Source: Falsiroseomonas stagni DSM 19981
Lineage (GTDB): Bacteria > Pseudomonadota > Alphaproteobacteria > Acetobacterales > Acetobacteraceae
Assembly: GCF_900114315.1 (NCBI RefSeq)
Contig: NZ_FOSQ01000015.1
Location: 1-64,000, forward strand
DNA: 64,000 nucleotides
Direction: 5' to 3'
Shown: in pieces, positions 36,141 to 44,769 of the stretch
How the letters are laid out: every line of letters starts with the position of its first letter
Position numbering within the stretch: the stretch's first letter is position 1
Notes under the pieces: model-generated
What the model was told of the DNA's origin: nothing
The model's database searches: none
The model's input: the letters and a program-made list of their open reading frames with translations, nothing else
Translations under genes and position numbers: made by a program

Positions 36141-36217
36141 GGACCCGTAGCTCAATTGGATAGAGCACCAGACTACGGATCTGGGGGTTAGGAGTTCGAA
36201 TCTCTTCGGGTCCGCCA
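36141..36217 (+). tRNA. tRNA-Arg (anticodon ACG)
   Basis: Standard cloverleaf: acceptor GGACCCG/CGGGTCC, D-arm TAGCTCAATTGGATAGAGCA, anticodon stem CCAGA/TCTGG around CTACGGA (anticodon ACG, probably edited to ICG by TadA), T-arm GAGTTCGAATCTC, and encoded CCA at 36215-36217. Confidence 0.96.
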
Positions 36218-36241: not shown

Positions 36242-36270
36242 AAGCCGCGGCATCAGCCGCGGCTTTATTC
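36242..36270 (+). terminator. Terminator downstream of tRNA-Arg
   Basis: The 10-bp stem AAGCCGCGGC/GCCGCGGCTT closes the tetraloop ATCA and runs into TATTCGTTTC. It fits transcription ending 25 bases after the tRNA. Confidence 0.8.
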
Positions 36271-36420
36271 GTTTCTGGGCCACGCGATGGCCCGGCGCGG
36301 GTAACCGCGGGACGCAGCGGGCGATACGCCAGATCAACCTGGATTGCTGTCCGGGGACCATCCCGACACGTGCCGGTTGAGCTATGCCCGCGGGGCGATC
36401 TCGGGCATTTTGGCCCCAGA

Positions 36421-37782
36421 ATGACCCCTGCCACCAACCGCGCGCCCCAAGCCGCCCTTGTTCCGGACGTTCCCGCGTTGCCGGGCGGCGGGCTGCTCGG
36501 CCATCTGGCGGCCATGGCGGCCGCACCGCACAGCTTTCCCGCCGCCGCCCTGCAGGCCCATGGCGGCCTGGTCGGCATCCGGCTCGGCCCGCGGCGCATC
36601 GTCGCTGTCGGGCGCCCCGATCTGGCGCGGGAAGTCCTGGTCACGCGCGCGGACCGCTATCCCCGCGGCCGGATCAACCGCAACCTCGGCGCGGTCATCG
36701 GCGATGGCCTGCTGGCGACGGAAGGCGAGGTCTGGCGCGCCCGCCGCCGCCGGATGCAGCCCTCCTTCCGGGCCGATCGCCTCGGCACCCTCGCCACCAC
36801 CACCGATGCGGTGATGCGGGAGACGCTGGCGGGCTGGACCGGCGCGCCCATCGATGCGGCGGAACAGGCGGGACGCATCGCCATTCGCGTCATCGGCGGC
36901 GTGCTGCTGTCGCAGCGGATCGGGGAGGGGCAGGGCAGCGCCTTCGTGGCCGCGGTGCAGGATTGCCTGGCGCAGCTCATGCGCCGCAACTGGTCGCTGC
37001 TTCGCTGGCCGCTCTGGGTGCCCGTGCCGGTCAACCGGGCCGTCAACGCCACGCGCCGCACGCTGGAAGCCTTCCTGGGCGAGGCGCTGGACCGCCGCCT
37101 CGCGGCGCCGGACGCGCAGCCCGATGACCTTCTCACCGCGCTCATCCGCGGCCGGCCCGATGACCCGCCCCTGCCGCGCCAGGCGCTGCTGAACGAACTC
37201 AAGACGCTGTTCGCCGCGGGGTTCGAGACGACGGCAACCGCCCTGACCTGGCTGATGTACCTCCTGGCCCTCCATCCGCAGGTCGCGCAGGCGCTGCGCG
37301 ACGAAGCCGCCCCGGTGCTGGGCGACCGCGCGCCCGGGCCCGCCGACCTGCCACGCCTGCCCTATGCCGCAGCGGTGGTGGAGGAGGCGATGCGCCTCTT
37401 CCCCCCGGTCTACAACATGGGCCGCGATTGCGCCGCCGATGACGATCTCGGCGGCTTCCGCATCCGCGCGGGCACCACCGTCGTCGTCTCCATCTTCGCC
37501 ATCCATCGCAGCCCCGATCTGTGGGAGGTGCCGGAGGCATTCCGCCCCGACCGCTTCCTCGGCGCCGCCGCGGCGGACCGGCGCAACCTGCTGCCCTATG
37601 CCTGGGGCCGGCACCAATGCATCGGCAACCACTTCGCCGACCTGGAACTGGTGGTGGCCCTGCTGGCCATGGTGCGGCACTGCCGGCTTGAACTGACGGA
37701 GGAGGCGCCCGTCGGCATGCGCGGCCGCACGACGCTGGCGCCGGACCGCCCCATCCGGTTGAAGGCGGTGCCCCTGGCATGA
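36421..37782 (+). CDS. Cytochrome P450
   Basis: The 453-residue haem monooxygenase has every P450 landmark: I-helix AGFETTATALTW, K-helix EEAMRLFPP with ExxR, the PERF-like PEAFRPDRFL, and the haem loop YAWGRHQCIGNHFA with C400 as thiolate ligand. The loop starts with Tyr in place of the common Phe and has His in place of Arg, both tolerated variants. No signal or reductase domain is fused, so separate redox partners are needed. ATG 36421 gives the proline-rich P450 N-terminus; an in-frame TTG lies 51 bases upstream. It is the first gene of a six-gene run and overlaps the next start by four bases. Confidence 0.94.
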   Translation: MTPATNRAPQAALVPDVPALPGGGLLGHLAAMAAAPHSFPAAALQAHGGLVGIRLGPRRIVAVGRPDLAREVLVTRADRYPRGRINRNLGAVIGDGLLATEGEVWRARRRRMQPSFRADRLGTLATTTDAVMRETLAGWTGAPIDAAEQAGRIAIRVIGGVLLSQRIGEGQGSAFVAAVQDCLAQLMRRNWSLLRWPLWVPVPVNRAVNATRRTLEAFLGEALDRRLAAPDAQPDDLLTALIRGRPDDPPLPRQALLNELKTLFAAGFETTATALTWLMYLLALHPQVAQALRDEAAPVLGDRAPGPADLPRLPYAAAVVEEAMRLFPPVYNMGRDCAADDDLGGFRIRAGTTVVVSIFAIHRSPDLWEVPEAFRPDRFLGAAAADRRNLLPYAWGRHQCIGNHFADLELVVALLAMVRHCRLELTEEAPVGMRGRTTLAPDRPIRLKAVPLA

Positions 37783-38354
37783 GGATCACGCCCCCCACCC
37801 TGGCGGGGTTCGAGGTGCTGGACACCGGCGACCCCTCCGCGATCCGGGCCTATGAACAGGCCTTCTACCGCGCCTTCGAACCCATCCGCCCGGCCGGGCT
37901 GCTGCGTCGCCTCTGGGTCTGGGACGATGCGGCGGGGCGCATCGCGGCGCCGGTGCCCTATGCGGAGCAGGTGGTCTATGTGTTGCGGGATGCGGGGGGC
38001 GAGGTGCAGCGCGGGCTCGCCGTGAACCTGGCGCTCCGCACCGTGCAGGCCGCACGCTTCGGCTTCACCCTGCCCGCGGAGCCCGGAATCGCGGAGATGC
38101 TGACCTTCTTCTCGGCCGGCCCGCGCGACCTGCGCGGCGCGCTGCGCTTCCGTCGCGCCTGCTACGCGGATCTGCGCGCCCGCGGCCTGCGCTACGGCTA
38201 CGGCACCGCCCGCCGCCGCCCGCTGGCGGCCTATGGCCGCTTCGGGACGGAGGTCACGCAGGAACGCTGGCTGGATGGGGAGGCGCGCTACCTGCTGCGC
38301 TTCGACTTCACGGCGGATTTCTCCCAGCCCCGGGGGCAGGGCGCGGGCGGATGA
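37779..38354 (+). CDS. Unrecognised 191-residue protein in the P450-exporter operon
   Basis: No family was recognised with confidence. It is soluble, Arg-rich, without signal peptide or membrane segment. Patterns such as YEQAFYRAFEPIRPAGLL, RRACYADLRARGLRYGYG and LAAYGRFGTEVTQERW loosely recall GNAT-fold acyltransferases, where a Y/F-rich segment near the C-terminus lines the acyl pocket. Both ends overlap neighbours (ATGA with the P450 gene and with the adaptor gene), so it is made stoichiometrically with them and probably takes part in the same pathway. Confidence 0.7.
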   Translation: MRITPPTLAGFEVLDTGDPSAIRAYEQAFYRAFEPIRPAGLLRRLWVWDDAAGRIAAPVPYAEQVVYVLRDAGGEVQRGLAVNLALRTVQAARFGFTLPAEPGIAEMLTFFSAGPRDLRGALRFRRACYADLRARGLRYGYGTARRRPLAAYGRFGTEVTQERWLDGEARYLLRFDFTADFSQPRGQGAGG

Positions 38355-39388
38355 CCGCGCCGCCTCCCCCGCGCCGCCCCCTGCTGCTGGTGCTGGCCGC
38401 GGTGGTGGTGGCGGGCGCGATGGTCCTGGCCCAGGGCGAAGGGCCCGCCCCCGCCGCCCAGCCCAGCCCCCAGCCCGCCGCCGCCAGCCTGGTCGCCCGC
38501 GGGCGGATCGAGCCGGAAGGGCGCGTCATCGCCCTGCATGGCCCCTTCCGCAGCGTGCTCGGCCGCGTGCTGGTGCAGGAAGGCGATGACATCGCCGCCG
38601 GCCAGGTCGTCGCGCTGCTCGATACCCATGCGGTGGCGGCGGCGCAGGCGGAGGCCGCGCGCGCGCGCCTCGCCTTGGCGCTGGCCGAGGAAGCGCAGGT
38701 CGCCGCCCCGGCCAAGCCCGGCGTGATCCTCGCCCAGCGGGCCCTGGTCCGGGCGCGGGAGGCGGAGCTGACCCTCGCGCGGCAGGAACACGCCCGCGTC
38801 GTCACGCTTCGCGCCACCAGCATCGCCACCCAGGCCACGCTGGAACAGCGCCAGGCGGAGCTGGACCGCGCGGAGGCCGCCTTGCGCCAGGCGGAAGCCG
38901 AACTCCGCGCGCTCAGCGAGGTGCGGCAGGAGGATCGCCTCGCCGCCGCCGCCCGCACCGCCGTGCAGCGCGCCGCGGTGGCGGAGGCCGAGGCCGAGCT
39001 GGCCCGCGCCAGCATCCGCGCCCCCTTCGCCGGGACGGTGCTGGCGCTGCTGCGCCGGGGCGGGGAGAGCATCGGGGATGAAGGCATCCTCCAGATGGCC
39101 GCGCTCGACCGCCTGGTGGTGGTGGCGGAGGTGGAGGAGGCCGATGCGCCGCGCATCCTCCCCGGCCAGGCCGCCCGCATCACGGGCCGGGTGCTGGCCG
39201 CGCCGGTGGAAGGCCGGGTCGAACGCGTCGGCCGCCAGGTCATGCGCCAGCGCCGCACGAGTTCGGACGTGCTGGTCGGCCGCGATGCCCGGATCGTCGA
39301 GGTCACGATCAGCCCCCTCGGCGCGCTGCCGCCGGTGGTGGGGGCGGAGGTGGAGGTGCGGCTGCCGCTCGCGCCGCCGCGCCCATGA
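38351..39388 (+). CDS. HlyD/DevB-type periplasmic adaptor of an ABC exporter
   Basis: The 345-residue membrane-fusion protein has one N-terminal membrane helix (LLLVLAAVVVAGAMVLA), a lipoyl-like half-domain around GRVLVQEGDDIAAGQVVALLD, a long Ala/Arg/Glu-rich coiled coil (about 95-215), then the second half SIRAPFAGTVLALLRRGGES and a beta-barrel region. The match is to DevB, the adaptor of the heterocyst glycolipid exporter DevBCA. It would link the inner-membrane permease to an outer-membrane channel such as TolC, which is not encoded here. Confidence 0.88.
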   Translation: MTAPPPPRRPLLLVLAAVVVAGAMVLAQGEGPAPAAQPSPQPAAASLVARGRIEPEGRVIALHGPFRSVLGRVLVQEGDDIAAGQVVALLDTHAVAAAQAEAARARLALALAEEAQVAAPAKPGVILAQRALVRAREAELTLARQEHARVVTLRATSIATQATLEQRQAELDRAEAALRQAEAELRALSEVRQEDRLAAAARTAVQRAAVAEAEAELARASIRAPFAGTVLALLRRGGESIGDEGILQMAALDRLVVVAEVEEADAPRILPGQAARITGRVLAAPVEGRVERVGRQVMRQRRTSSDVLVGRDARIVEVTISPLGALPPVVGAEVEVRLPLAPPRP

Positions 39389-39398
39389 AGGCGCCGAG

Positions 39399-40586
39399 GT
39401 GACGGAATTGGCGCGCTTCGCCGCCCTGCTGGCCTTCCGCCAGCTGCGCTACCGGGCGCTGGCTTCCCTCGCCGCGCTGGCCGGCGTTGCCGTCGCGGTC
39501 ATGCTGATGCTGGTGCAGGTGGGTTTCCGGAACGGGCTGTATGACAGCGCGCTGGCCCTGCCGCGGGCGCTGGCGGCGGATCTGGTGCTGGTCAGCCCGG
39601 GCTATCGCGCGCTCACCTTCTCCCCCCCCTGGTTCCCGCGCGCGGCGCTGCGCGATGCCGCGGGGGTCGCGGGGGTGGCCGAAACCGCCAGCCTCTACGC
39701 CTATAGCGGCCAGGTCCGCAGCCCGGAGACGGGGGGCAACCTCTCCGTCTGGCTGCTCGGCATCGACCCCGCCGCCCGGGTGCTCGACCTGCCGGGCCTG
39801 GCCGAGGCGCAGCGAGCCCTCTCCGTGCCGGAGACCGCCTTCCTGGACCGGCTGTCGCGGCAGGAATTCCGTGGCGTGGTGGCGCGGGTGGCGGAAGCCG
39901 GCTTCGTCCGCCTGCCGGTCTATGCGCCGACGGCGGATCTCGCGCCGGTGCTCTCCCTGCGGGGCCTCTTCACCCTCGGCCCCTCCTTCACCATCGACGG
40001 CACCCTGTTGATGAGCGACCTGACGCTCCATGCCACGCTCGGCGTGCCGCTGGACCGCGTCTCGATCGGGCTGGTGCGGCTGGAGCCGGGGGTGGCGGCG
40101 GCGCCCGTGGCGGTGGCGATCGCCGCGCGGCTGGATGGCCGGGCGCGGGTGATGACCCGGGCGGATTACCTGGCGGAGGAACGGCGCTTCTACGCCAGCC
40201 GCACGCCGATCGGCGTGATCTTCAATGTGGGGCTGCTGGTCGGCGTCGCGGTGGGCGTGGTCTTCATCCTCCAGGTGCTGAACGGCCTCGTGGATGCCAA
40301 CCTGCCGGACTATGCGGTGCTGCTGGCGCAGGGCTACCGCCCGGCCTTCCTGGCGGCGGTGGTGGCGCAGGCGGCGGTCGCCATCGCGTTGCTCACCTAT
40401 CTGCCGGCGCTCGGCCTTGCCCTTGCCGTCACCGGCGCGGCGGCGGAGGTCACGCGCCTGCCGATCGGCCTGCACGGGTCGGACATGACCATGGTGCTGG
40501 CCCTCAGCCTCGCCATGGCGGTGGTGGCCGCGGGGATGGCGGTGCTGCGCCTGCGTCGCGCCGATCCGCTGGAACTGTTCGGATGA
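39399..40586 (+). CDS. DevC-type ABC exporter permease (MacB/FtsX superfamily)
   Basis: The 395-residue protein has four predicted membrane segments with a large periplasmic domain between the first and second (about residues 45-265), the layout of DevC/MacB permeases. The first helix is ASLAALAGVAVAVMLMLVQV; the last three lie in the C-terminal 130 residues (IFNVGLLVGVAVGVVFIL onwards), ending RRADPLELFG, typical of the FtsX family. The start is GTG 39399 behind GAAGG; ATG 39385 upstream is not usable because it stops after five codons. It overlaps the ATPase start. Confidence 0.88.
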   Translation: MTELARFAALLAFRQLRYRALASLAALAGVAVAVMLMLVQVGFRNGLYDSALALPRALAADLVLVSPGYRALTFSPPWFPRAALRDAAGVAGVAETASLYAYSGQVRSPETGGNLSVWLLGIDPAARVLDLPGLAEAQRALSVPETAFLDRLSRQEFRGVVARVAEAGFVRLPVYAPTADLAPVLSLRGLFTLGPSFTIDGTLLMSDLTLHATLGVPLDRVSIGLVRLEPGVAAAPVAVAIAARLDGRARVMTRADYLAEERRFYASRTPIGVIFNVGLLVGVAVGVVFILQVLNGLVDANLPDYAVLLAQGYRPAFLAAVVAQAAVAIALLTYLPALGLALAVTGAAAEVTRLPIGLHGSDMTMVLALSLAMAVVAAGMAVLRLRRADPLELFG

Positions 40587-41275
40587 AGGCGCCGCTGGCC
40601 GAACTCCGCGATGTCAGCCACGGCTTCGGCCGCGGGGCGCAGCGCCGCGCCGTGCTGCGGGGCATCACGCTCGACCTGCGCGCGGGGGATTTCGTCGCCC
40701 TCACCGGTCCCTCGGGATCGGGCAAGACCACGCTCCTGACCTTGCTGGGCGCGCTGCGCGTGCCGGAGGAAGGCGACCTTCGCCTGCTGGGCCAGGATGT
40801 CCGCGGGCTGGAGGCGAAGGCGCTGGGCGCGCTGCGTCGGCGCATCGGCTTCGTCTTCCAGCGCCATCACCTGCTGCGGTCCTTGAGCGTGCTGGAGAAT
40901 GTGGAAGCCGCGCTGCATGGCCAGCCCGATGCCGATCGCGCGCGGGACCGCGCGGCGGCGCTGGCCATGCTGGAGGCGGTCGGCCTTGGCGGGCGTGGCG
41001 GCGATTCCACCGCGCTTCTGTCGGGCGGCGAACAGCAGCGCGTGGCGGTGGCACGGGCGCTGGTGCGGCGGCCATCGCTGGTGCTGGCGGATGAACCCAC
41101 CGCCTCCCTCGATGGCACCAGCGGCCGCGCCGTCGTCACGCTGCTCGCGGCGCTCACGCGCGGCCGGGATTGCGCGGTGGTGATGGGAACGCATGACGAG
41201 CGCTGCCTCGACCTGGTGACGCGGCGGCTGCACATGGAGGATGGCGTGCTGAAGCAGACGGAACAGGCGGCATGA
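40583..41275 (+). CDS. DevA/LolD-type ABC exporter ATPase
   Basis: The 230-residue ATPase has Walker A GPSGSGKTT (residues ~43-51), Q-loop FVFQRHHLLRSL, signature LSGGEQQRVAVARAL, Walker B LVLADEPTASLD and the H-loop MGTHDERC. It belongs to the LolD/MacB/DevA subfamily that drives mechanotransmission-type exporters with four-helix permeases. ATGA overlaps bind it to both neighbours. Confidence 0.94.
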   Translation: MKAPLAELRDVSHGFGRGAQRRAVLRGITLDLRAGDFVALTGPSGSGKTTLLTLLGALRVPEEGDLRLLGQDVRGLEAKALGALRRRIGFVFQRHHLLRSLSVLENVEAALHGQPDADRARDRAAALAMLEAVGLGGRGGDSTALLSGGEQQRVAVARALVRRPSLVLADEPTASLDGTSGRAVVTLLAALTRGRDCAVVMGTHDERCLDLVTRRLHMEDGVLKQTEQAA

Positions 41276-42066
41276 CCGCGGCGCCCGACTTCACGGAACG
41301 GCCCTGGCCGCCGCTGCGCGACCTCATCCTCGGCATGTTGTCGCTGCATCGACCGCTGACCTTCCACGGCATGATCGAGGCGGATGTCACCCGCATCATG
41401 GACGGGCTGGCGACGCTGCGGCGGCAGGACCGGCAGGCGGTGTCGCTGCATGCCGTGCTGGTGGAAGCGGTGGGCTTCGCGGCGGCCCGCAACCCGGGGG
41501 TGCTGACCTTCCGCCACGGGAAGAAGCTGGTGGCCTTCCGCGACGCCGATGTGGCGACGGTGGTGGACCGCAAGCAGCCCGATGGCACCCGCCTGCCCAT
41601 GGGCCTGACCATCCGCGCCGCGCAGACCAAGGATGTGATGACGATCCATGCGGAGTTGCGCGCCGCGCTGAAGGGCGACCTGACGCAGACGGAGGAGGTG
41701 AAGCGCCGCCGCCGCCTGCTGCGCCTGCCGAAGCCGCTGCGCGCGCTGGTGCTGCGGCGGATCGCGGCGGACCCGCATCTGCTGCGCCGCGTCCAGGGCA
41801 CGATCGGGCTGACCAGCCTGCAGCGCCCGGGCCTCGATTTCCGCATGGTCGCCTTCCCGCCCAATCCCTTCACCGTCTCCATCGCGGTGGGCGGGATCGA
41901 GACGCGCCCCGCGGTGGCGGGCGGGGCGCCGCGGCGCGTGCTGTCGCTGGGCGGCGCGATGGATCACGCGGTGATCGACGGCGCCGCGCTGGCGCGCTTC
42001 TGCATCACGCTGCAGCAGCGCCTGGCGGATGCGGAGGGGATGGCCGGGCTGCTGGAGGCGCGCTGA
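41272..42066 (+). CDS. Stand-alone E2/CAT-fold acyltransferase-like protein
   Basis: The 264-residue protein resembles the catalytic domain of 2-oxoacid dehydrogenase E2 components and chloramphenicol acetyltransferase. The family's active-site segment is present as MDHAVIDGAALARF, with H232 and the downstream Asp-Gly. No lipoyl or peripheral-subunit domain is present, so it is not a normal dehydrogenase E2. Inside the exporter operon it could acylate the exported compound. A 20-residue Arg-rich insertion (KRRRRLLRLPKPLRALVLRR) near residue 145 is unusual and might bind membrane or acidic partners. Confidence 0.75.
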   Translation: MTAAPDFTERPWPPLRDLILGMLSLHRPLTFHGMIEADVTRIMDGLATLRRQDRQAVSLHAVLVEAVGFAAARNPGVLTFRHGKKLVAFRDADVATVVDRKQPDGTRLPMGLTIRAAQTKDVMTIHAELRAALKGDLTQTEEVKRRRRLLRLPKPLRALVLRRIAADPHLLRRVQGTIGLTSLQRPGLDFRMVAFPPNPFTVSIAVGGIETRPAVAGGAPRRVLSLGGAMDHAVIDGAALARFCITLQQRLADAEGMAGLLEAR

Positions 42067-42073
42067 CGCGCCG

Positions 42074-42763
42074 TCAGCCCGGCACGCCGGGGTGCTTCAT
42101 CAACCCGCCATGGCGCAGCGCCACATGGTCGAACAGCGCGCGGTCCTCCCGCGTGACCTCCAGCAGCAATTCGCAGGTGCTGCTGTCCAGGTTGATGCGG
42201 CCCTGGCCGGCGGTCACGTTCTCCCGCTCCACCCGGCCCGGCGCCACGCCCAGCCAGCGATGCAGAAGGGCGGATACGTCATCGACCCGCGCCGTGGTGC
42301 CGACCAGGGCGTAGCAGCCCTCCAGGATCGGGATCGCCTCCTTCGCCGTCCCGGCGCCGGTCAGTTGCCGGCAGGCTTCCGCGGGCAGGGCCTGGGCCGA
42401 TTCCCGGATGAATTCGGCGAACCCCCGGTCACGGAATTCGGCATGCAGCGGGTGGTCCCGCCAGGTGGCCATGTAGTTGAAGGCGGAGAGCAGGCGCGCC
42501 ACGGGGTCCCGCAGCAGGGTGACGAAGCGGGCATCGGGCCGGGCGCGTTCCAGCGCCTCGTTCACCGTGACATGGCCGCTGACCAGCGCCTGGCCCGCCA
42601 CCTGGTCCGGCGCCATGGCGAGGAAGGCGGCGTGCTCCACCTCATCGCCGATGCGCAGCACGCGGTCGGGCGGCAGCGCCCTGGCCAGGGCGGCGTGCAG
42701 GGCGAAGCCGCCGGTCTTTGGCAGGTGGATGAAGACCACCTGCGCCGGGGTGGGACGGATCAA
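42074..42763 (-). CDS. Sulfotransferase family 2-like protein
   Basis: The 229-residue protein has the PAPS-binding elements of membrane-type sulfotransferases: VFIHLPKTGG with K16 (5'-phosphosulfate loop) and LLRDPVARLLSAFNYMA near residue 95 (3'-phosphate loop). It would transfer sulfate to a carbohydrate or lipid. The start is TTG 42763, inside the stop of the upstream BcsB-like gene (TTGA overlap), which places the PAPS loop at the expected distance from the N-terminus. It is convergent with the acyltransferase gene, with seven bases between the stops. Confidence 0.78.
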   Translation of the reverse strand: MIRPTPAQVVFIHLPKTGGFALHAALARALPPDRVLRIGDEVEHAAFLAMAPDQVAGQALVSGHVTVNEALERARPDARFVTLLRDPVARLLSAFNYMATWRDHPLHAEFRDRGFAEFIRESAQALPAEACRQLTGAGTAKEAIPILEGCYALVGTTARVDDVSALLHRWLGVAPGRVERENVTAGQGRINLDSSTCELLLEVTREDRALFDHVALRHGGLMKHPGVPG

Positions 42764-44769
42764 GCCTCGGCCTCCCGCCGTGGATGGAGGAAGGCATGGA
42801 CCACCAGGGCGAAGCCCAGCACCCAGAGCACGGCCAGCACATAGGGCCGCCAGACCAGGATGGCGGAGCGTTCGGCCTGGGCTGTCCCCGGCATCGCGGG
42901 GGCAGGGGCGGCGGGGGCAGGGGCGGCGGGGTTGGGCGCCTCGGCATAGGCCAGCCGGACTTCCGGCACGGGCGCGGCGCTGGACCAGGCGAGGGCCACG
43001 CCCTGCCCATCCAGCAGCGCCACATCGCCCCGTTCCAGCCGCGGCGCCGCGGCGGGCAGCGCGGGCATCAGCGTCGGCAGCCGCAGCCAGAGGCCCGGGC
43101 GGTCCCCCTCCGCCACCACCGATTGGGCGGCGATCATGCGCTGCGCGCCTTCCAGGTCCAGCAGGGGCCTGCCGTCCCGGTCCGACAGGGTCAGCCGCCC
43201 CGCATCGAAGCGCAGCGCGGGCTGGCTGCCCGCCGGCGGTTCCGCCGTGATGGCGATGAAGGGGCCTGTGGGGCGCGGGGGGGCCGTGCCCTCCCGCACC
43301 GAGACGGTGATGGGCGCGGCGGCGGGCACCAGGCCGCGCAGCAGCCACAGCACGGGGTTCAGCGTCTCCGCCACCGGTCCCCCCTCCGGTGCGTCCAGGA
43401 TCACCTCCACCCCGCCGGCGAAGCGGCTGGGCAGGCCGAGGAAGTCGCGCGAAGGTGGCGCGGGGGAAAGCCGGAGCAGGCTGTCCGGCAGCAACTGCGC
43501 CACGCCGCCCGGCCCCGGGCGCTGCAGCGTCACCACCAGCCGGTTGTCGAGCCGCAGCAGGGCGGGCGGGATGGGAAGGCTGATGCGGGCCGGGCTGCCC
43601 TCCGCCAGCGCCGCGCTGCCCAGCATCGTGTCGTTCAGCACCGCCGTCGCGATGCTGCGCCCGGCGGTGTCGGGGGTGCGCATGAAGGCGAGGTCGATGG
43701 AGGAGGGCATCCCGCCCCCCGGCAGGTCCCGCAGCGCGAATTCCAGCGCCCAGCCCGGTGCCGCGCCTTCCTGCGGCAGCGTGGCGCCGCGCAGCGCGGC
43801 GAAGGGCAGGGCGGCGAAGGGCAGGGCGGCCGTCGCTTCCTCCGGCGCGCGGGCATCCCGCACGCCGAGGGTCGGCGCCGCCGCCGCATCCCGCCACGGC
43901 CCGTCCAGCAGCCCCGCCGCGCGTTCGGGCTGCGGCCCGCCCAGCGCCAGCGCCGGCATTCCGTCCAGGTCCAGCACCGCCGCGCCGGAAGGGCCGAGCC
44001 CCACCACCACCGCGCCGGTGGTCCAGAGCCGTTGTCCCGCCGGCCCGCGTTCGATGACAGGCGGCGCGCCGGAGCCGATCCGCACCTCCCGCCCCGACCC
44101 CGCGAGCGCCAGGCCGATGCGCAGCGCCGCCGCGGCTTCCGTCGCCGGCAGCGGGCCGGGACGGGTCAGCACCTGGGTCTGCCGCGGCAGCAGGCGGAAC
44201 AGGGTGGCGACGGAGGGTGCCATGCCGTCCGGCAGCAGCAGCGCCAGGTGGCTGTCCGCCCGCAAGGTCGCCAGCGCGCCGCCGGCCTGGTCCACCAGCC
44301 GCAGGCCGAGGCGCAGCGCCGCGCCGTCCCGCGCCAGGTCCTCCGCCGGGATGGGCAGGTCGATGGTCAGGCGCGTCTCGCCTTCCGCGAAGGCGCGGCT
44401 GGCCAGCACCCGTCCATTGGCCCAGACCTCGACCGCCTGGCGGCCGGCGAAGGGGGCGACGAGGTCGAAGCCCAGGCTGGCGCGGGCGGCCAGGCCCGGC
44501 ATGTCCCGCGGCATGGCGAAGGCCACTTCCCGCCCCGCGGTGCCGAAGGCGAGACCGGCCTCCAGCCCGAGTTCATCCAGCCCGATGCGGCGTTCCAGCG
44601 GCGGCGGCGCCACGGGAAGGGGCGCCGGCAGGGGCTGGGTGGCGACCGGCGGGCGCGGCGCGGGGCGGGCCGGGCGCTGCTGCGCCTCCGCCGCCAGCGG
44701 CAGCAGCAGAAGCGCGGCGACGACCAGGCAGCGACCGGCGGCAGGGGCAGAGGGGCGATGGGGGCGCAC
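42760..44769 (-). CDS. BcsB-like periplasmic protein, anchored at the C-terminus
   Basis: The 669-residue product has a signal peptide (CLVVAALLLLPLAAEAQQ), a proline-rich stretch, a large beta-rich periplasmic part and a single membrane helix at the C-terminus (YVLAVLWVLGFALVVHAFL). This layout and pieces such as MPRDMPGLAARASLGFDLVA and RLDNRLVVTLQRPGP match BcsB, the periplasmic partner of cellulose synthase, but similarity by eye is modest and no bcsA is nearby. A direct repeat, ALPFAALPFAALRG, lies near residue 317. The start is GTG 44769 behind GAGGATCC. A related polysaccharide synthase subunit is the main alternative. Confidence 0.55.
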   Translation of the reverse strand: MRPHRPSAPAAGRCLVVAALLLLPLAAEAQQRPARPAPRPPVATQPLPAPLPVAPPPLERRIGLDELGLEAGLAFGTAGREVAFAMPRDMPGLAARASLGFDLVAPFAGRQAVEVWANGRVLASRAFAEGETRLTIDLPIPAEDLARDGAALRLGLRLVDQAGGALATLRADSHLALLLPDGMAPSVATLFRLLPRQTQVLTRPGPLPATEAAAALRIGLALAGSGREVRIGSGAPPVIERGPAGQRLWTTGAVVVGLGPSGAAVLDLDGMPALALGGPQPERAAGLLDGPWRDAAAAPTLGVRDARAPEEATAALPFAALPFAALRGATLPQEGAAPGWALEFALRDLPGGGMPSSIDLAFMRTPDTAGRSIATAVLNDTMLGSAALAEGSPARISLPIPPALLRLDNRLVVTLQRPGPGGVAQLLPDSLLRLSPAPPSRDFLGLPSRFAGGVEVILDAPEGGPVAETLNPVLWLLRGLVPAAAPITVSVREGTAPPRPTGPFIAITAEPPAGSQPALRFDAGRLTLSDRDGRPLLDLEGAQRMIAAQSVVAEGDRPGLWLRLPTLMPALPAAAPRLERGDVALLDGQGVALAWSSAAPVPEVRLAYAEAPNPAAPAPAAPAPAMPGTAQAERSAILVWRPYVLAVLWVLGFALVVHAFLHPRREAEA

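Follow-up and report, generated by a model that had tools for sequence, protein, structure and literature searches.

The first 64,000 nucleotides of contig NZ_FOSQ01000015.1 of Falsiroseomonas stagni DSM 19981 (hereafter the window) carry a six-gene operon that is a real, conserved and mobile unit, marked by an unnamed protein family with a predicted GNAT fold. The operon (36421 to 42066, + strand) encodes, in order, a cytochrome P450, a 191-residue protein, the three parts of a DevBCA-type exporter and a stand-alone acyltransferase of the E2/chloramphenicol acetyltransferase (CAT) fold (Table 1). We favour the reading, at a probability of about 0.45, that this is a mobile operon for biosynthesis and export, in which N-acylation, oxidation by the P450 and a second acylation would be followed by DevBCA-type export. 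An earlier note on this DNA had described six co-directional genes with four ATGA overlaps and one 10-base gap, and a script check of the five junctions bears this out, with 4-base overlaps at four of them and the gap at the fifth. The P450 gene has an alternative, longer GTG start at 36370; the ATG at 36421 aligns with the ATG of three congeners.

Carriers were found in eight genomes. The complete order P450, 191-residue protein, DevB, DevC, DevA, CAT-fold enzyme is present in six of them: the window's own genome (G000) and three others of its genus (G773, G1135 and G1136), one from another genus of the family (G589) and one from another order (G243). The remaining two, Roseococcus thiosulfatophilus and R. 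suduntuyensis (Roseomonadaceae, Acetobacterales in the NCBI taxonomy), have a three-gene core of P450, 191-residue protein and CAT-fold enzyme, in which the genes overlap and those for the exporter are missing. The earlier note had named scattered homologues lacking synteny as the observation that would refute its reading; synteny is in fact kept beyond the genus, and even in a different order. The ratio of nonsynonymous to synonymous substitutions (dN/dS; a counting method at high GC content, hence rough values) between G000 and G773 was 0.10–0.31 for the six operon genes and 0.07–0.27 for four flanking genes, and reached 0.38–0.61 for the operon genes against the distant G243, so that all six genes look to be under purifying selection. 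Five other genomes repeat the complete order and the genes have dN/dS values of 0.10–0.31, so the gene set goes beyond chance. In R. thiosulfatophilus, the P450 is split into two overlapping open reading frames in this assembly (L010:10546-11906, - strand), which could be an assembly error or decay, while that of R. suduntuyensis is whole.

The gene for the 191-residue protein is rare. In genome samples that overlap one another it was detected in 3 of 150 genomes of a first family sample, 5 of 397 of a larger family sample, 2 of 385 genomes of the class and 1 of 398 of the phylum, the last being the window's own. Four of 15 genomes of the window's genus have it (G000 and G773 by a search that found none in 11 others, G1135 and G1136 by reading of the locus), as do one of five in the genus of G589, two of 21 in the genus of G044 and one of two in the order of G243. 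A scan of contigs with two peptide patterns yielded the two Roseococcus loci only, a lower bound because the patterns do not fit G243, G773 or G589. Among 240 genomes of the class, an orthologue of the CAT-fold enzyme (E ≤ 1e-30) was detected in two, and these, G000 and G243, also carry the 191-residue gene. Two congeners, G749 and G575, lack the operon but have leuB, the same tRNA-Arg and a sulfotransferase gene in one place (the sulfotransferase of G575 was missed by the gene caller and seen by search). A third congener, G611, also has that sulfotransferase, with other genes at the site. The surroundings also vary. In the window's genus they are leuB/tRNA-Arg and the sulfotransferase; G589 has secretion-type genes around the operon, G243 has flagellar and tRNA-ligase genes among others, and the Roseococcus core lies next to a branched-chain-type ATP-binding cassette (ABC) importer and other genes. 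Names of neighbouring genes were read by eye from translations unless Pfam support is stated. Because the site is empty in G749 and G575 and the surroundings differ among carriers, the operon was gained or lost as one block.

The 191-residue protein had been called unrecognised in the earlier note. This still holds at the level of families, since none of six members of the family matched Pfam at E ≤ 10 and the window's protein matched nothing in NCBIfam at E ≤ 1. A profile of the family gave chance matches only against solved structures (best E 1.2). Its AlphaFold model nevertheless adopts a GNAT fold, with a mean predicted local distance difference test score (pLDDT) of 72.7. In one VIA-align comparison, 10 of the best 14 fold matches were FeeM or N-acyl homoserine lactone (AHL) synthases, representing six distinct proteins aligned over 159–164 residues, and the remaining four, from three different proteins, were other GNATs aligned over 140–141 residues. 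Seventy-three positions are invariant in all eight orthologues. Judged from the model, the protein is probably a GNAT-fold acyltransferase, and thus the second acyltransferase of the operon, perhaps of the FeeM/AHL-synthase type.

The two other enzymes are assigned by motifs and domains. The P450 scored 253.7 bits against PF00067 (cut-off 22.8) and has an I-helix FETT (E269, T270), E322xxR325 and the haem cysteine Cys400 in YAWGRHQCIG; ExxR, the acid–threonine pair and the haem cysteine are invariant in all seven full-length orthologues. Its nearest solved structures are 3dbg, which we take to be CYP170A1, albaflavenone synthase, and 7wzl, followed by plant carotenoid hydroxylases, and in NCBIfam the albaflavenone monooxygenase model comes closest, at a score far below its cut-off. 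These nearest relatives indicate no substrate. Homologues in a plasmid collection are less than 60% identical. Two further P450 genes were seen in the same genome: one (L003:1342-3716; G000:C27 near 168998) overlaps a lipid A-type acyltransferase gene (PF03279, E 2.2e-21) and makes a second pair of P450 and acyltransferase genes, the other (L002:2-3854; G000:C22 near 365001) an ATP-grasp gene (PF02655), with an FAD-dependent enzyme nearby that resembles a carotenoid desaturase by eye. The CAT-fold enzyme of the operon, 264 residues long, has the catalytic domain PF00198 as its sole Pfam family above cut-off, with a motif H232xxxD236G237 invariant in eight of eight sequences. In this it is like the E2 of 2-oxoacid dehydrogenases; unlike E2, it matched neither the lipoyl nor the E1/E3 subunit-binding domains of Pfam, and is therefore probably not a complex subunit. 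E1/E3 genes were not recognised by eye in the operon loci read. In the plasmid collection its homologues are 10 records, all haloarchaeal and 27–33% identical; the two surroundings read (L084:5974-6765 and L085:5908-6681, ~28–30% identical) hold the CAT-fold gene as a single gene among unrelated genes, with no E1/E3 genes listed nearby. The P450, a FeeM/AHL-synthase-like GNAT N-acyltransferase as predicted by the model, and the stand-alone E2/CAT-fold acyltransferase probably make up the three-enzyme core.

In six of the eight carriers, the DevBCA-type genes lie between the second and the third enzyme gene. The earlier note had named DevB-, DevC- and DevA-type parts; the first passes its NCBIfam cut-off, while the DevC- and DevA-like proteins match their models below theirs (Table 1). 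In a search of 18 genomes, DevC of the operon type scored 698–756 bits against its own profile in G000, G773, G589 and G243, all full-operon carriers, and the other proteins at most 228; G1135 and G1136 lay outside that search, and both Roseococcus genomes had DevC of the common type only. By these profile scores the operon's DevC is a separate, operon-bound subfamily. Pfam recognised no gene for an outer-membrane channel among the six operon proteins.

We propose the following sequence of events. The GNAT enzyme would take a fatty acyl group from acyl-acyl carrier protein or acyl-coenzyme A and join it through an amide bond to an amino acid or another small amine. The P450 would then hydroxylate the acyl chain or the head group, and the CAT-fold enzyme, through the histidine of HxxxDG, would transfer a second acyl group, plausibly onto the hydroxyl made by the P450. 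DevB, DevC and DevA might finally carry the product out of the cell together with a TolC-like channel. We infer the amine and the acyl donors, the order of the reactions, the lipid nature of the product and its export from the gene set, the motifs and the predicted fold, in a locus observed to be syntenic, present or absent as a unit and under selection. The gene content fits the oxidation, acylation and export that the earlier note had suggested, with the amendment that there appear to be two acyltransferases and that the exporter is missing in Roseococcus.

Several observations weigh against this proposal. Roseococcus keeps the three enzymes without any exporter genes beside them, so the DevBCA exporter is not an obligatory part. 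Whether it was gained or lost turns on groupings with 54% support in the P450 tree and 60% in the CAT tree. No acyl carrier protein, ligase or redox partner was recognised among the six proteins with Pfam and NCBIfam, and the substrate is not fixed by any gene of the operon. The P450 and both acyltransferase folds occur in detoxification too. Of the structure predictions suggested in the earlier note for the products of the genes at 37779 and 41272, the first gave the GNAT fold; the second reached a pLDDT of 38.5, which was unusable and was not used. The GNAT-fold model itself was built on three sequences, and the other four models of this protein had pLDDT values of 47.8–52.6. The highest Z in the fold comparison belongs, in a tie, to a GNAT outside the FeeM/AHL group (5jph, 14.9 versus 14.6), and other acetyltransferases align over 153–156 residues at lower Z. 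Finally, hhalign found no match between the 191-residue family and an OlsB-type profile (PF13444; P-value 0.69), with a query Neff of 1.6 and an OlsB-type set of 25 of 26 loci, two dropped for length, whose profile keeps one visibly misframed row (L041).

The earlier note had also suggested a perhaps lipid-like envelope compound. This is unproven, "envelope" because Roseococcus does without the exporter, and it does not follow from DevBCA, given that DevC and DevA fall below their cut-offs and that the paralogues of the glycolipid exporter DevBCA of Anabaena include drug efflux pumps, as stated in the part of the source consulted (PMC8277102). A more specific version of our proposal, which is rather unlikely as it stands, is a new class of exported aminolipids: an N-acyl amino acid, made by a new sequence family of enzymes with the FeeM/AHL-synthase fold, would be hydroxylated by the P450 and O-acylated by the free-standing CAT-fold enzyme to a two-chain lipid with its own pump. 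If true, it would answer an open point of a 2024 review of aminolipids, which in the portion available describes synthesis by OlsB-type and PlsC-type enzymes and further acylation of N-acyl amino acids as unreported (PMC11631085).

The main rival explanation, to which we would give a modest but real chance, is a detoxification cassette in which the P450 oxidises a foreign toxin or antibiotic, the GNAT and CAT-fold enzymes acetylate it and a MacB-like DevBCA pump expels it. However, FeeM and the AHL synthases take longer acyl donors, and the model of the 191-residue protein fits these better than it does the aminoglycoside enzymes, with higher Z and longer alignments. The plasmid collection contained no homologue of this protein at E 1e-3, and reading by eye revealed no regulator gene beside the operon. 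A gene order that stays fixed in distant genera also seems to suit a pathway better than a loose assembly of resistance genes.

It is improbable that the P450 and the acyltransferases decorate an existing lipid (a carotenoid, hopanoid or ornithine lipid, for example) instead of taking part in new synthesis. LUT5 and carotene epsilon-monooxygenase do rank third to fifth among the solved relatives of the P450, but behind 3dbg and 7wzl. Aminolipid precursors are probably available, since an OlsB-type gene (PF13444) is present in the genome, and the overlap of another of its P450 genes with the lipid A-type acyltransferase gene mentioned above points the same way, yet reading of the loci by eye showed no gene of carotenoid or hopanoid type. 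Least likely of all is a role in signalling, with an AHL-like compound or an N-acyl amino acid as the signal, made by the GNAT, altered by the remaining enzymes and released through the pump: RpaI, TofI, BjaI, LasI and MesI are among the top fold matches, but the protein has no Pfam match and hence, despite the similar fold, none to the autoinducer synthase (LuxI) family, no LuxR-type regulator was recognised by eye beside the operon (no profile search was made), and a pair of acyltransferases together with a P450 and a tripartite pump exceeds what an AHL requires.

The operon lies directly downstream of a tRNA-Arg gene, from which a terminator-like hairpin separates it, and this suggests that it has its own promoter. 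An upstream element points in this direction too: because it is kept in the four congeneric carriers and is in part recognisable by eye in G589, where the operon occupies a different genomic site, a promoter of the operon's own is probable. A sigma-70 consensus was looked for in the element and none was found. In the window, no second copy of 11, 12 or 14 bases from the last 37 bases of the tRNA was seen that could mark a border repeat.

Table 1. Features of the operon and its upstream region in the window.
Feature	Position	Strand	Evidence or remark
tRNA-Arg(acg)	36141..36217	+	ARAGORN
Terminator-like hairpin between tRNA-Arg and operon	36242..36265	+	1 found; mean of 0.2 in shuffled sequences
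Upstream element GGTTG.GCTATGC ... GCATTTTG	36375..36413	+	Kept in four carriers of the window's genus
Cytochrome P450	36421..37782	+	PF00067, E 4.4e-75
191-residue protein, predicted GNAT fold	37779..38354	+	No Pfam or NCBIfam family; AlphaFold model and fold comparison
DevB-type periplasmic membrane-fusion protein	38351..39388	+	TIGR02971 (DevB), 145.6 bits, above cut-off (129)
DevC-like permease, GTG start	39399..40586	+	TIGR01185, 233.8 bits, below cut-off (290.35)
DevA-like ABC ATPase	40583..41275	+	PF00005, E 2.3e-31; TIGR02982, 251.8 bits, below cut-off (295.8)
Stand-alone E2/CAT-fold acyltransferase	41272..42066	+	PF00198, E 1.4e-12

On the other side of the operon, a weak sulfotransferase gene (42074-42739; PF13469 below cut-off) adjoins a gene on the - strand (42760-44769) for a 669-residue protein that has a signal-peptide-like start and resembles BcsB by eye but matches no Pfam family at E 0.01. 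In G243, the operon is followed (L017:15740-19900) by cupin-like and AAA-like genes (weak Pfam matches) and, further on, by PqqD-like, glycosyltransferase-like and radical-SAM-like genes in a row (by eye), perhaps a peptide-modification cluster.

No description of this six-gene set was found in the open-access PubMed Central literature, which is consistent with the earlier note, whose author knew of no system with this exact set. The types of parts are known and their combination seems undescribed. If our proposal of biosynthesis and export holds, the operon is likeliest to be a variant of acyl-amide biosynthesis clusters. As far as the consulted parts of the sources go, tailoring clusters headed by an N-acyl amino acid synthase occur in several phyla (PMC12479983), and TyzA, which N-acylates L-Tyr and L-Phe, was studied by expression in Rhodococcus jostii and is encoded beside tailoring enzymes, gave an AlphaFold model with FeeM and BjaI as the nearest structures (PMC10404671). 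The operon resembles the tyz (Mycobacterium tuberculosis) and nasY clusters in placing an acyltransferase beside tailoring enzymes, with the likeness to FeeM and BjaI stated for TyzA; it differs in having a P450, a CAT-fold acyltransferase and an ABC exporter in place of a ThiF-like cyclase and a nitroreductase-type oxidase (PMC10404671, PMC12479983). Neither of these partners was recognised among the six proteins with Pfam or by eye among the neighbours read. The 191-residue protein shares with FeeM, NasY and TyzA the GNAT fold, FeeM being among its best matches, but unlike them has no sequence-family match.

The proposed order of N-acylation before O-acylation recalls the two-step synthesis of aminolipids by OlsB and OlsA (PMC11631085, in part), whereas here the OlsB model is not matched, the second enzyme has a CAT fold rather than being of the PlsC type, and a P450 and an exporter are added. 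An involvement of a P450 with such amides has a parallel in humans, where CYP4F2 is reported, in the section seen, to determine circulating levels of N-acyl amino acids (PMC10318452). The exporter shares gene types and the order devB-devC-devA with the Anabaena DevBCA-HgdD system, as far as the excerpt describes it (PMC8277102), in contrast to which DevC and DevA are below their NCBIfam cut-offs and the genes are tied to a three-enzyme operon. The tolyporphin clusters of cyanobacteria likewise hold P450, acyltransferase and DevB/DevC genes together, but they represent a tetrapyrrole pathway with many other genes, and the excerpted text mentions no such GNAT (PMC8401325).

The operon is a compact unit of six genes whose product can be searched for directly by deletion or by transfer to a laboratory host, and a fold is now assigned to a protein family that is nameless in Pfam and NCBIfam. 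If the proposal of biosynthesis and export is correct, a P450 and CAT-fold route to acylated amines would exist beside those of OlsB/OlsA and of NasY with its ThiF and nitroreductase partners. The operon also raises the question of what DevBCA-type pumps carry outside the cyanobacteria.

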